DNA of 64,000 nt from Candidatus Syntrophocurvum alkaliphilum. Its GTDB lineage: Bacteria > Bacillota > Syntrophomonadia > Syntrophomonadales > Syntrophomonadaceae. Below the pieces are notes generated by a model. The model did no database searches. It saw nothing but the letters and a program-made list of their open reading frames with translations, and was not told the DNA's origin. The DNA is taken from contig NZ_CP046457.1 in the NCBI RefSeq assembly GCF_009734445.1, forward strand, positions 1,358,001 to 1,422,000, in the 5' to 3' direction. Shown piece by piece: positions 3,119 to 43,566 of this stretch. The position numbers were made by a program, and so were the translations under genes. The stretch's first letter is position 1. Each line of letters begins with the position of its first letter.

Positions 3119-4723
3119 TTAGAGTTTTTTTAAAACTTGCTGACGAGCAAGTTCTTGAAATGCCATCATAAAATCATCTGATAATTTATCCCATCTTTTT
3201 GCAATACAGATGGTCTTTTCATCTAAGTTATATAAATTTGGATGAGCTATTATTTCATTTATTAATTGAGTATAATGTTCAATTTCTTCTTTGTCAGAAC
3301 CTGTTAATGATTCATTAACAAATTCTTCAATAGAAAACCAATCTGCATTTATTTTAAAATCATTGTATAATTTAGTAAGTAGTTCATTTCTAGGTCCTTC
3401 ACACAGCTCAAATATATTAGAATTTCTATATAACCGAGGAAGGCAAGTAAAATCTTCTATTACTCCTTGAGTGCCTAAGATAGACATAGCTTCGTGAATA
3501 ATATTGGTGCTCACTTTTGAATTGTATATTTTTGCAAATAAAACTAATTGTCTTGCTAAAAACTTTTTCTTGCGGACTTCAATTGGATCAGCCTTGTTTA
3601 TTACTTTAAACTTACCTCCACTTTGTAAAAATAAATCAAATAGCTTAAATGAACCAGCTACTATTCTTTCTAGTTCTGCTTGTAATTCACGCAATTTAAC
3701 TACCACTAACGGAAATTGATTTATTTTAACACCAAATGTTTCTTTAAATTCACTATATAGTTTAGCTTCTCTTACTGCCCTTATAGCCGCACCAATAGTA
3801 GTAGTACCGATTCCAAGCTTAGAATGTAACAAAATTGTTTCTAATACATTATTTGTTTCATAATCAAAATCACCTAAGAGGTATGCTATGCTACCATTAA
3901 ATGTCATCTCAGCAGTAGGTAGTTCAACAGTACCTAATTTCCATTCTAAACTCTCTATGGTATACCCATTCCTATAATTATTTTTCTTCTCTTCTGGTAA
4001 ATAAGCAGGTAGTAGAAATATACCGGTTTTTTCAGAGTTTTTGATTTTAGCAATTATAATGAAATAATCAGCGTGAATTGCGGAACAAAAAAACTTAGAC
4101 CCAAATAATCTCCAATTATCCTCTTCATATTGGGCTTCTAACGTAATGGTAGCTACATCTAATTCATTTTGTATTCCAGATAAAAACTGAGCTCCTATGC
4201 CAAATTCTCCATTAATCCCTTCTTTACAATGTCGTAAGATTTTGTTAATTTCGGAATGACGATTTGAGGAATCGGTTAGTTCGTCGATGATATGGATTAA
4301 GCCTTGAGTACATAGTAATGGATACATTATCCCAATTTCACCATTTTGGTTTAATAACATTATTTTAATGAATCTTTCCCAATCTCCTGTGGTTTCAGAA
4401 AATAATCCTGAGGCAAATATTTCTTTTTCCATTAGCTCCATTGTTATAGGTCTTACTACACGATCTATTCTATTATTAAAATTATCGTAATTTATAATAT
4501 AAGGTCTATTTTCGATTTTTGTACACTCATCAGCCATATCAGTCCATCTAAAAGAAACATTGTTACCATATTCCTTAAGCTTTTCATTTAAATAATCATA
4601 ATCATTTTTTATATAATGCTTGATGCATCTTTGCAAAAATATATCGTGTTCAAAAAAATTTATTCGCCGTTTTTCAAGCCATTCTTTAAAACTGTAAGGG
4701 TTGTTTTTTTCTGGCAAACTCAT
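3119..4723 (-). CDS. Acyl-CoA dehydrogenase family protein (AidB-like)
   Basis: The 534-residue length and an extended N-terminus of about 100 residues match the AidB branch of flavin-dependent acyl-CoA dehydrogenases. Visible elements are GAQFLSGIQNELDVAT, standing where family members have the MTE.GGSD flavin-binding loop; the beta-domain piece WRLFGSKFFCSAIHADYFII; and the helical GIGTTTIGAAIRAVREA and ELCEGPRNELLT regions that contact FAD. The start ATG has GGGGTGAA upstream. The usual MTE triad is lost, so either substrate binding has diverged or activity is weak. A role in lipid oxidation or a response to alkylation damage is possible but cannot be decided here. Confidence 0.72.
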   Translation of the reverse strand: MSLPEKNNPYSFKEWLEKRRINFFEHDIFLQRCIKHYIKNDYDYLNEKLKEYGNNVSFRWTDMADECTKIENRPYIINYDNFNNRIDRVVRPITMELMEKEIFASGLFSETTGDWERFIKIMLLNQNGEIGIMYPLLCTQGLIHIIDELTDSSNRHSEINKILRHCKEGINGEFGIGAQFLSGIQNELDVATITLEAQYEEDNWRLFGSKFFCSAIHADYFIIIAKIKNSEKTGIFLLPAYLPEEKKNNYRNGYTIESLEWKLGTVELPTAEMTFNGSIAYLLGDFDYETNNVLETILLHSKLGIGTTTIGAAIRAVREAKLYSEFKETFGVKINQFPLVVVKLRELQAELERIVAGSFKLFDLFLQSGGKFKVINKADPIEVRKKKFLARQLVLFAKIYNSKVSTNIIHEAMSILGTQGVIEDFTCLPRLYRNSNIFELCEGPRNELLTKLYNDFKINADWFSIEEFVNESLTGSDKEEIEHYTQLINEIIAHPNLYNLDEKTICIAKRWDKLSDDFMMAFQELARQQVLKKL

Positions 4724-5381
4724 AATTTCACCCCTTTATAAATAAATCTTTTTAGTAATTAAGATATTCTTGAAACTGTTAGCCTATTCCTAACTAAATA
4801 CTAGTTAACAGTTTTAGAAACAAAATTGCCGCCTTTTGTTAGGCGGCTAAGCTCTTTTTTTATTGTTACTTAATAACTGACTTGAGAAATATTAAATTTA
4901 AGCTTTTAAAAAAGAGGGGAAAGTGGTTAGGTTAACAATCAAGTTAATAAGGAGGTTAACAGTTAAGTTCATAAACTTGAAACTGTTTTTAGGTATTTAA
5001 TAAATACCTGTGAAGGTTGTAAGCTGGATTTATGGGGCACTTCACTTGATTGCCTAACCTAATAATAACTTATGAACTATATGATAAAAAAGTGCTAACT
5101 ATTTATAATTTTTTTTATTTTTATTAACAAACTTTAATTTAACTGCAAAAAGAAGTTAACAAAAATTTTAAGGTTGAGCTAAATTATTCATTTAGCCCCT
5201 TAAGCAACTAGGCATGTGCATAGGTTGCAAAAAATAATAAATAAAATTTTAGGTTAATAATTAACTTAACATTTTAATATATTTTAATAGTAACAACTAA
5301 TTTAGCATTTTAGTTTTCGTTAATAATGCTAGTGGCAATTTTTCTATTTGCCTATTAGTAAATGGTTAGGAGGAGATAAGA
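4724..5381. other. Gene-free 658-bp region dense in inverted repeats
   Basis: No plausible protein is encoded. Hairpins seen are a 9-bp AAACTGTTA/TAACAGTTT (4773-4814), GCCGCCT/AGGCGGC followed on the plus strand by a T-run (4828-4858), the cloverleaf listed separately, TTAAGG..GCTAAAT/ATTTAGC.CCTTAA (5168-5203), GCAAC/GTTGC (5204-5228), TAGCATT/AATGCTA (5303-5331) and GGCAA/TTGCC (5334-5352). The palindrome GTTAAC occurs at 4804, 4931, 4955 and 5155. The spacing suggests a regulatory or protein-binding region, an RNA gene, or both. Confidence 0.6.
4925..5059. ncRNA. Candidate structured RNA/DNA element with a four-way junction (cloverleaf)
   Basis: The outer stem pairs 4925-4931 with 5053-5059 and 4936-4944 with 5044-5052, sixteen base pairs interrupted only by a 4-nt bulge (TTAA). 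Inside are P2, 4958-4969 with 4974-4987 (12 bp, CATA loop, 2-nt bulge); P3, AGGTATTT/AAATACCT (4991-5009, 3-nt loop); and P4, GTGAAG/CTTCAC (5010-5045, two bases shared with the outer stem). No known RNA family is recognised; T-box, SRP and tmRNA signatures are absent. The transcribed strand is unknown and no expression evidence exists. Confidence 0.45.
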
Positions 5382-5876
5382 GTGAGAGAGATACGTTATA
5401 AAATAAGTGAAGTTTCGGATTTATTAGGTATAGAACAGCATACATTAAGATACTTAGAAAATAGTTTAAAATTAAAAATAAAAAGAGACGAACGTGGTGA
5501 TAGAGTATATAATGATTCTGATTTAGAAACATTTAGATTAATATTAAGTCTTAGGGATAAAGGGCTTAATACTACAGCAATAAAAATGGCCTTAGAAAAT
5601 TTAAATCAATCGGATGAAACATCAGTTGCACCAAAAACCTCTACTAACAATAATATAGAAATTTATGAAGCAATTGCAAACATAGAAAAAATAGTAGAAC
5701 AAAATGATAAACTAATTAAGCAAAATGAAAACCTTGAAAAAAGAATTGAGAATCTAGAAAAAAAAATAGACGAAAAAGAAAGCAATCGTCAAAGTAAGAT
5801 TGATGAGTTAATAAGACTTTGGAAAGCAGAACAAGAAAAAAATAAATCCTGGCTTTCTAAATTGCGAGGTAGGTAG
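5382..5876 (+). CDS. RacA/MerR-like DNA-binding protein with coiled coil
   Basis: The 164-residue protein has an N-terminal MerR-type winged helix (RYKISEVSDLLGIEQHTLRY, residues 4-23, ending near 65). A low-complexity linker follows, then a long charged coiled coil (residues 95-145) and a tryptophan-containing basic tail (KSWLSKLRGR). This layout resembles RacA, which anchors chromosome origins to DivIVA in sporulating Bacillus, and also plasmid or phage HTH-coiled-coil proteins. No ligand-binding domain is present, so a classical MerR sensor is unlikely. The start is GTG with AGGAGG eight bases upstream. It sits directly after the inverted-repeat-rich region, which may hold its binding sites (inference). 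Confidence 0.7.
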   Translation: MREIRYKISEVSDLLGIEQHTLRYLENSLKLKIKRDERGDRVYNDSDLETFRLILSLRDKGLNTTAIKMALENLNQSDETSVAPKTSTNNNIEIYEAIANIEKIVEQNDKLIKQNENLEKRIENLEKKIDEKESNRQSKIDELIRLWKAEQEKNKSWLSKLRGR

Positions 5877-5894
5877 CCAAGATTAAGAATACTA

Positions 5895-6515
5895 TTAAAA
5901 TCCTAGTTCTTCATTTATAATTATGACTTTCATTTTACTAGATAAAGGTTGTTTTTCTATTATAGTAGTAACATTACACATTCTTTCTGGACTATTACAA
6001 TCTCTACACTCACCTATTTGTGCACAAGGTGTTTTGCGATCTAGTCTTCTAGCATTTTTATAAGCATTAGCTTTTACATGTTTTATAGCTGCATGTACGT
6101 CTTTAACAATTTTGTTTTTACCACATACTATTATAACCTTCTCATGACCATATATCATCGATGAAACCCTATTGCCAACACCATCAATATTCACAAGCTG
6201 TCCATTTTCAGTTAATGCATTTGTACTTGATAAGTAGACATCTGTAGTCATTGCTTTTCTTAGTACTTCTTGTTTCTTTTCAGGTGCTTCTTCAAGCCAA
6301 TGAAAATACACTTCATTCCCTCTATTAATTAACTTCTCAGGTATTTTTAGTGAGTCTATAGTTACTGAACCACCTATTCCTACTGTTTGGTTTTGTTCAA
6401 TTTCTTTTAATAGGTAATCTACAGCCTCATTAGAGTTTTCAAAGTACTCTGCTTCAATATTGTTTTTATTAAGTGCTTGTATTGTTTTTTCTATTGTTGT
6501 ATCGATTGCTATCAC
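5895..6515 (-). CDS. LUD-domain protein (LutC/YkgG, DUF162 family)
   Basis: The 206-residue LUD-domain protein has the family landmarks VGIGGSVTI, a central TDVYLSSTNALTENGQLVN, and the C-terminal cysteine cluster TPCAQIGECRDCNSPERMCN that is common in stand-alone clostridial members. LutC relatives take part in lactate oxidation, but no lutA or lutB is nearby, so the function is open. The GTG start is poorly placed, with the Shine-Dalgarno-like AAGAGGTG overlapping it, so the true start is uncertain. It is convergent with the RacA-like gene. Confidence 0.78.
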   Translation of the reverse strand: MIAIDTTIEKTIQALNKNNIEAEYFENSNEAVDYLLKEIEQNQTVGIGGSVTIDSLKIPEKLINRGNEVYFHWLEEAPEKKQEVLRKAMTTDVYLSSTNALTENGQLVNIDGVGNRVSSMIYGHEKVIIVCGKNKIVKDVHAAIKHVKANAYKNARRLDRKTPCAQIGECRDCNSPERMCNVTTIIEKQPLSSKMKVIIINEELGF

Positions 6516-9238: not shown

Positions 9239-9682
9239 TTGTATAAAGGCGAAATTTTAGCAGTTTGTTTAAGTGCTAGAAAAGGTGAAAAGAAAAAAGA
9301 TATGGGTAGAGGTTTCTTAGAGGTTGATTCTGGACTTAAAGGAGATGCTCATTCAGGACCTTGGCATAGACAAGTTAGTCTTTTAGCTCTAGAAAGTATT
9401 GATAAAATGAAAAAACACGGGTTGGATTTGGAATATGGAGATTTTGCTGAAAATCTTGTAGTTAAAGGAATAGAGTTAGATAAACTTCCAGTTGGGACGA
9501 TATTAAATCTAGGTAGTGGTGCAGTTTTAGAGGTTACTCAAATCGGTAAAGACTGCCACAATAGTGAGTGTGCAATTAAACAACAAACTGGTGAATGTGT
9601 AATGCCATTAGAAGGTATTTTTGCTAAAGTATTAAATGGCGGACTAGTATCTGCTGGAGATACAATTGAAGTAGTAAAATAA
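9239..9682 (+). CDS. MOSC domain protein
   Basis: The 147-residue protein matches the MOSC (molybdenum cofactor sulfurase C-terminal) fold. Landmarks are GLKGDAHSGPWHRQVSLL, YGDFAENLVVKGIEL, GAVLEVTQIGKDCH and CAIKQQTGECVMPLEGIF with the conserved cysteine. Small MOSC proteins are thought to handle sulfur or molybdenum cofactor; no moa or mod genes are in the window. The start is TTG with GGGGGA upstream. An extended -10 (TGTTATAAT, 9132-9140) precedes it. Its 3' end is partly duplicated just downstream. Confidence 0.87.
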   Translation: MYKGEILAVCLSARKGEKKKDMGRGFLEVDSGLKGDAHSGPWHRQVSLLALESIDKMKKHGLDLEYGDFAENLVVKGIELDKLPVGTILNLGSGAVLEVTQIGKDCHNSECAIKQQTGECVMPLEGIFAKVLNGGLVSAGDTIEVVK

Positions 9683-9715
9683 TAGTTTGAAAAACATACT
9701 AGGAAACTGGAGGAG

Positions 9716-9780
9716 GGAAGCACGGGGACGGTTCTTTTGCTTCCTAAAAAAGGAAGCAAAAGAACCGTCCCCGTGCTTCC
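9716..9780. repeat. REP-like palindrome, copy 1
   Basis: This is a perfect 30-bp inverted repeat (9716-9745 with 9751-9780) around an AAAAA loop. Each arm has the core GGGGACGGTTCTTTT between GGAAGC and GCTTCC. It belongs to the same family as the elements near 18.1, 20.2 and 25.0 kb. It lies exactly between the MOSC gene end and the duplicated MOSC fragment. Confidence 0.93.
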
Positions 9781-9874
9781 TTGAATGTGCAATGCCATTA
9801 GAAGGTATTTTTGTTAAGGTGTTAAAAGGTGGACTAGTATCTGCTGGAGACAAAAATGAGGTAGTTGAACAATA
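9781..9874 (+). pseudogene. Truncated second copy of the MOSC C-terminus
   Basis: About 92 bp repeat the last 90 bp of the MOSC gene at roughly 85% identity. The encoded tail ECAMPLEGIFVKVLKGGLVS matches ECVMPLEGIFAKVLNGGLVS of the intact gene. It has its own stop codon but no start or N-terminal part, because the palindrome abuts its left end. The divergence suggests the remains of an old tandem paralogue rather than a fresh duplication. Confidence 0.8.
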
Positions 9875-9902
9875 AAATATAATTTAATTTCGTATAAATT
9901 AA

Positions 9903-43336: not shown

Positions 43337-43566
43337 TAAAACCCATCCCTTATAACAGGGACGGGTTTTTACCCGCGGTTCCACCCTAATTGGTTATTAT
43401 GTTTAATAACCCACCTCATGGAATCAGGCTTTACTAACCATACTGGCTTTCTTCCTGTAGCTCAAAAGTGCCTTCGGAAAAATCCTTACTAGGTCCCAGC
43501 ACCCCTAGCTCTCTTAAAAGAATTTATTTTCCTACTACTCTTTATCATCGCTATTTTATTAAATTA
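43337..43566 (-). promoter_or_regulatory. Glycine T-box leader of glyQS
   Basis: On the minus strand the leader shows the specifier loop with GGC (Gly) in GAAGGCACTTTTGAG, the T-box GGGTGGAACCGCGGG (about 43371-43391), and a terminator stem AAACCCGTCCCT/AGGGATGGGTTT with poly-T (about 43337-43369). Uncharged tRNA-Gly(GCC) should favour the antiterminator. About 120 nt separate the terminator from glyQ. Confidence 0.95.

Follow-up and report, generated by a model that had tools for sequence, protein, structure and literature searches.

A candidate minus-strand RNA gene overlapped by a putative operator array next to a MerR-like gene in the Syntrophomonadaceae

The interval between two divergent genes of Candidatus Syntrophocurvum alkaliphilum, one acyl-CoA-dehydrogenase-like (3119-4723, minus strand) and the other encoding a MerR-type helix-turn-helix (HTH) with a coiled coil, contains a dense set of nested inverted repeats, and raises the question of whether these belong to an RNA, to a protein-binding site on the DNA, or to both. 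All positions refer to the window, that is, the whole stretch of 64,000 nucleotides that was analysed (1358001-1422000 of a single-contig 2.36-Mb genome).

The element, its distribution and its neighbour gene

An earlier note on this DNA had described a four-way junction at 4925-5059, and all of its parts are present. The outer stem of 16 bp consists of 7 bp (4925-4931/5053-5059) and 9 bp (4936-4944/5044-5052) with a 4-nt bulge (4932-4935), and encloses hairpins of 12 bp (~4959-4988, with one 2-nt bulge), 8 bp (4991-4998/5001-5008) and 6 bp (CTTCAC/GTGAAG, 5010-5015/5040-5045). The low chance that the note gave to so many nested stems was borne out, as the fold of 4925-5059 was more stable than all 200 dinucleotide shuffles on either strand (z -3.49 on the plus strand and -4.48 on the minus strand). 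Minimum-energy folding gives the cloverleaf on the minus strand and a rod on the plus strand. The junction did not hold up as the core of the element, since its three inner hairpins were not conserved in 44 constrained folds. Judged from these comparisons, the four-way junction is specific to the window copy and is not a defining feature of the family, and the results suggest that its inner hairpins are largely by-products of inverted half-sites.

The note had recognised no known RNA family here, in agreement with an Rfam 15 scan at gathering and relaxed thresholds, which gave no match at 4818-5078 (best sub-threshold E>2). A tRNA/tmRNA search found none at the element. Elsewhere in the window, Rfam identified a T-box leader at 43354-43557 (minus strand; RF00230, 130.7 bits). 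A protein-coding reading was rejected, because locus L009 is open by chance in one frame and its close relative L010 is frame-shifted there. Within the element, 5012-5036 is identical at 24 of 25 nt (~22 contiguous, E about 1e-4) to L002:1501-1525, which belongs to the coding strand of another, conserved gene of the genome (..CEFPEGCKLDLWAKV..); relatives of that gene match too, and searches of it against Pfam and NCBIfam gave no match. Full-text literature searches, with subscription journals outside their coverage, returned no paper on the element and no description of a small RNA in the Syntrophomonadaceae.

A repeat search of its own genome found the element as a single copy. In a separate part of the window (9239-9875), a small gene has the end ..MPLEGIFAKVLNGGLVSAGDTIEVVK, and an altered copy of this end follows just downstream, which resembles a partial tandem duplication. 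Nucleotide similarity recovered pieces of the element in genomes of the same family, and the named relatives are Syntrophomonas, Thermosyntropha and other Syntrophomonadaceae. A covariance model of the 3′ part of the element (R1), built from 34 relatives without the window, found the window copy full-length at 4947-4818 on the minus strand, with E values of 3.6e-6 genome-wide and 9.8e-8 in the window. R1 matched one place per genome in 43 of 54 family genomes, including 28 of 28 of good quality (completeness of at least 90%, contamination of at most 5%), and two places in G004, whose contigs duplicate the locus; the places reported are at MerR-like genes. Nothing was found by R1 in nine genomes from other families of the same class, and the 12 matches in a phylum draw of 398 genomes were all in-family (0 of 386 non-family genomes). 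A gene for the MerR-like protein is present in 46 of the 54 family genomes and in all 28 good ones; at E<=1e-10 the protein has no match in the nine other genomes of the order. Comparison of these genomes establishes both the conservation of the element and its linkage: it stands once per genome, upstream of the same MerR/RacA-like gene, in 28/28 good-quality Syntrophomonadaceae genomes, and the loss from close relatives that the note had named as refuting was not observed.

Alignment of the upstream regions of all 46 MerR-like genes revealed the same order of parts in nearly all of them (features of the window copy are listed in Table 1). The distance from the end of the element to the start codon of the MerR-like gene is ~20-26 nt in relatives and about 305 nt in the window. 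The ~300-nt AT-rich spacer that accounts for the greater distance occurs only in the window genome among those compared, and shows only short low-complexity similarity elsewhere in its own genome.

Table 1. Features of the locus in the window, with the basis of each assignment
Feature	Position	Strand	Basis
Candidate non-coding RNA gene, leftward, ~235 nt	4818-5055	-	R1, P1 covariation, minus-strand terminator
P1 closing stem, 5′ arm CAATCAAGT	5044-5052	-	pairs with 4936-4944; lineage-specific compensations
P1 closing stem, 3′ arm ACTTGATTG	4936-4944	-	lineage-specific compensations
C-rich stretch ACUUUCCCCUC (consensus ACUUUCCCUUCC)	4914-4924	-	nearly invariant columns, alignment A2
Hairpin P2 (GCUCAU..AUGAGC in relatives)	4848-4904	-	compensations in relatives; degenerate in window
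Intrinsic terminator, GCCGCC..GGCGGC stem (4847-4828) and imperfect T-rich tail	4820-4847	-	sequence, R1 alignment
Putative operator O3, 22-bp MerR-type palindrome ACCTAATAA-TAAC-TTATGAACT	5057-5078	.	pattern match and relatives
Putative operator O-mid, degenerate (13 of 16 positions), 62 bp from O3	4995-5016	.	spacing in relatives
Four 12-bp direct half-site repeats AGGTTAACAATC, AAGTTAATAAGG, AGGTTAACAGTT, AAGTTCATAAAC	4929-4976	+	sequence and family autocorrelation
AT-rich spacer, element to MerR-like gene	5079-5370	.	upstream-region comparison
MerR-HTH and coiled-coil gene, RacA-like architecture	5382-5876	+	Pfam MerR_1, E 1.6e-18

The neighbour gene had been called RacA-like in the earlier note. 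The MerR-HTH/coiled-coil architecture agrees with this name, with a coiled coil that is predicted below the Pfam cut-off; the NCBIfam RacA model gave 23.3 bits against a curated cut-off of 165. The protein has a conserved, basic C-terminal tail of the SWLSRLRGK type, possibly a tip that binds a membrane or a partner. At G024:C2:435367-435765 and G002:C89:18219-18608, a further MerR-like gene of greater length (258-277 aa) lies near the first, and in G024 an additional 22-bp palindrome is found near it. In the window, 18 nt separate the end of the MerR-like gene from that of a convergent gene with a LUD domain (5876-5895), and a similarly tight convergence with other genes occurs in several relatives (e.g. 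L084 and L093).

A candidate RNA on the minus strand

Read on the minus strand, nearly all loci present the same series of parts: the closing stem P1, the ACUUUCCCUUCC stretch, the hairpin GCUCAU..AUGAGC, and a G+C-rich hairpin followed by a T-run. The C-rich stretch, hairpin and terminator occur together in nearly all of 44 loci, and the terminator hairpin with its T-run on the RNA strand was recognised automatically in 42 of them; the tail of the window copy is imperfect. Plain RNAalifold on the whole MAFFT alignment returned no structure, because the core varies. For P1, the 3′ arm was placed by its fixed distance from the operator and not by pairing, and Watson-Crick pairs still exceeded those in shuffles (P=0.0004 in a permutation that used one row per genus). 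When 19 full-length sequences were aligned separately with MAFFT, 90% of P1 cells were paired on the minus strand, and pairing fell to 23-52% when the partner was slid. The same 19 sequences contained 7 double changes in P1 against 2.4 in shuffles (0 of 500 as good). P2 and P3, tested together, showed 13 against 3.2 (0 of 500). The shuffled controls correct only partly for the relatedness of the sequences. One pair of P1 is C-G in the window copy and A-T in most relatives. Covariation in homologues, which the earlier note had proposed as a check, is therefore seen in the closing stem.

The mismatches of P1 also bear on the strand of the candidate RNA. Wobble-type mismatches in its eight core pairs were 18 A.C (G.U on the minus strand) to 1 G.T, an excess that is partly expected from column composition, as shuffles give 12 A.C to 4 G.T. 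The wobbles of P3 showed no strand polarity, with C.A mismatches as common as G.U on the minus strand. Folding energies of the 44 homologues had a mean z of -1.76 on the minus strand vs -0.70 on the plus strand. At the level of sequence comparison, these data demonstrate the pairing of P1, P2 and P3, the minus-strand polarity of P1 and the terminator.

No convincing promoter was found on either strand, the best being a weak minus-strand -10 inside the palindrome O3. The highest mean minus-strand promoter score over 480 nt lies there, with TRTTAT as the -10 and a poor -35. We infer transcription of the RNA and its start site from these features, with a predicted 5′ end near 5055, deduced from the weak -10-like site, and a 3′ end near 4820. 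The new RNA that the earlier note had thought possible is supported in these results, as a unit that is longer than it supposed (about 4820-5055), lies on the minus strand and does not conserve the inner hairpins. We consider the element a candidate new RNA family.

The gene beyond the terminator varies: in many genomes it is a plus-strand acyl-CoA dehydrogenase gene, in others another gene of that strand, and in six genomes it encodes a transporter and is read from the minus strand. Since there is no common gene beyond the terminator, and the neighbour differs in both identity and orientation, a 5′ leader or riboswitch on the minus strand was rejected; a leader of the acyl-CoA dehydrogenase gene was rejected likewise, as that neighbour is not constant. 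The acyl-CoA dehydrogenase-like gene at 3119-4723 is on the minus strand in the window; in many relatives an acyl-CoA dehydrogenase gene is found upstream on the plus strand.

The C-rich stretch, with its nearly invariant CUUUCCC, is complementary to purine-rich Shine-Dalgarno sequences. Firmicutes sRNAs of the RsaE/RoxS and IsrR class are stand-alone RNAs that end in an intrinsic terminator and carry a conserved C-rich stretch, which can pair with Shine-Dalgarno sequences. The element resembles them in being a predicted stand-alone RNA with both features. It differs in having no Rfam match, in being tied to one MerR-like gene and in its closing stem around a variable core; unlike for RsaE-like sRNAs, conserved target mRNAs did not emerge. 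The exact complement AAGGGAAAGT of the C-rich stretch was not enriched before ATG over the control. Pairing of the C-rich stretch with the ribosome site of the MerR-like gene itself was generic (-13.8 kcal/mol for matched and -13.4 kcal/mol for mismatched combinations), and co-variation between the two was weak, with 11 of 200 permutations as good. Pairing with ribosome-binding sites would be the most likely action of the RNA, a proposal that the data support weakly and to which we give low weight because there is no enrichment before start codons and the pairing with the neighbouring site is generic.

Repeats, palindromes and helical spacing

The same DNA carries putative sites for a MerR-type protein. 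Operator O3 has 9-bp half-sites with the consensus RSYTNAYAA-N4-TTRTNARSY, stands at the same place in nearly all relatives and overlaps the predicted -10 (TATTAT, 5067-5062, minus strand). The exact pattern RSYTNAYAANNNNTTRTNARSY has a single match in the 2.36-Mb genome, at 5057-5078, and its reversed control has none; family-wide, O3-type matches outside the locus were near the control level (about 24 to 16). The second and more degenerate palindrome, O-mid, lies 61-63 bp from O3 in 41 of 44 genomes, which corresponds to six helical turns, and 52 bp from it in one. Its asymmetry is inverted in three g8 genomes, as would be expected of a DNA site but not of an RNA motif. Over the first 48 nt of the array, a 12-nt repeat is evident family-wide (identity 0.52 vs 0.29, lag-12 z 15.9). 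Distances between the arms of P1 fall into classes of ~105, 116, 127, 138 and 149, so that array length changes in steps of ~10.5-11 bp; departures from the common length class fit a 10-11.5-nt period with a rough P of 0.0006, under a simple null that corrects for relatedness only in part. In one locus (L046, G037) the operator repeats carry a 33-nt tandem duplication (about three turns).

As far as sequence can tell, the 61-63 bp spacing, the repeats and the length steps are marks of helical phasing in a protein-DNA complex. The protein-binding element that the earlier note had offered as an alternative is therefore supported as a B-form array of half-sites and palindromes with helical phasing; nothing points to the cruciform that it had in mind.

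Copies that depart from the common arrangement indicate how the two layers relate. In the window copy, ~300 nt from its gene, P2, O-mid and the T-tail are degenerate. L072 (G013) lacks the array between the P1 arms, and a short unrelated hairpin (CUUUCCCC) is found where P1 stands elsewhere; this locus keeps another hairpin, the terminator and the gene-proximal palindrome O3. L068 (G006) is likewise shortened with O3 kept. Since both loci are shortened yet retain O3, they suggest that the RNA core and the operator may have separate functions.

The array shares features with several known systems. BldC is a MerR-like protein that binds cooperatively to variable numbers of direct repeats (PMC5859096), and the likeness lies in direct half-site repeats of variable number and a MerR-type HTH. 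A BldC-type array was rejected, because the repeats are 12 bp and not 9 bp, with two 22-bp palindromes in addition, and because the neighbour protein has a predicted coiled coil, which BldC lacks. O3 resembles a classical MerR operator in its ~22-bp palindrome, 9-bp half-sites and 4-bp centre; a convincing promoter with a 19-20 bp spacer was not recognised around it, and it differs in that a second palindrome lies six turns away. Bacillus subtilis RacA shares the combination of MerR HTH and coiled coil, and differs in its ram sites, as O3 is not GC-rich, not multiple and not origin-proximal. The array, with direct repeats and two phased palindromes, is a candidate for a new arrangement of MerR-type sites.

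A combined reading and its alternatives

The reading that we judge probable is that a ~235-nt RNA gene on the minus strand shares its DNA with an operator array for the neighbouring MerR-like regulator. The -10 inside O3 would place the transcription start at P1, on the side of its 5′ arm (window position about 5055), and the transcript would begin with the P1 stem, expose CUUUCCC(UUCC) and stop at the intrinsic terminator. The adjacent MerR/coiled-coil protein would bind the palindromes and 12-bp half-sites cooperatively, as a phased or looped array, and when bound to O3 would cover the predicted RNA start. In relatives O3 lies just upstream of the ribosome site of the protein gene. Since O3 both covers the RNA start and adjoins this ribosome site, the bound protein would link autoregulation of its own gene to control of the divergent RNA; we infer the identity of the binder and the autoregulation from this layout. 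A more tentative extension, less likely than not, is a clade-specific regulator of two parts: the body of the RNA gene would serve as a helically phased scaffold, on which the protein would shut or remodel the RNA gene, and the RNA would act back on the mRNA of the protein or on a wider set of mRNAs.

The alternative that survives best, although it is rather unlikely, is that the locus works as DNA only: an operator array in which P1 represents inverted protein sites and the terminator merely stops antisense or read-through transcription. The strong repeats, palindromes and helical phasing fit this explanation, as does the retention of O3 where the RNA is shortened, and convergent downstream genes often end a few nt from the MerR-like gene. 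Against it stand the differences between P1 arms, which are mostly G-U compatible on the minus strand, the compensations in P1, P2 and P3, the conservation of the C-rich stretch and P2, which are not half-sites, and the unrelated hairpin at the place of P1 in L072. In about nine genomes the genes that follow the MerR-like gene are read from the plus strand and the terminator is present all the same, so the terminator does not as a rule close a convergent operon.

It is improbable that the element acts as a plus-strand 5′ leader of the MerR-like gene, riboswitch-like or an attenuator. Its constant place immediately upstream of the ribosome site in relatives would suit a leader; the weaker plus-strand folding, the wobble polarity of P1, a T-tail that faces the minus strand and the 300 nt between the window copy and the gene all argue against it. 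Less probable still is a ram/parS-like chromosome-anchoring site for a RacA-type protein, which the architecture of the neighbour protein and the cooperative look of the array might suggest: the exact palindrome occurs in the genome only at this locus, family-wide matches elsewhere are near control, the RacA score is below cut-off, and the element lies 712 kb from dnaA in the window genome and 460 kb in G020. A mobile or repeat element (MITE or REP-like) or chance inverted repeats, which hairpin inverted repeats could evoke if one genome were viewed alone, are refuted by synteny and copy number, with a single copy in the genome and the same place in 43 genomes of one family.

The Syntrophomonadaceae live in methanogenic ecosystems, where they oxidise fatty acids at the thermodynamic limit. 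In this family, the combined reading of RNA gene and operator array would provide a structured RNA candidate fixed at one locus in every good-quality genome, with phased protein sites within the gene itself. If true, it would widen the modes by which MerR-fold proteins assemble on DNA to include direct repeats together with phased palindromes.
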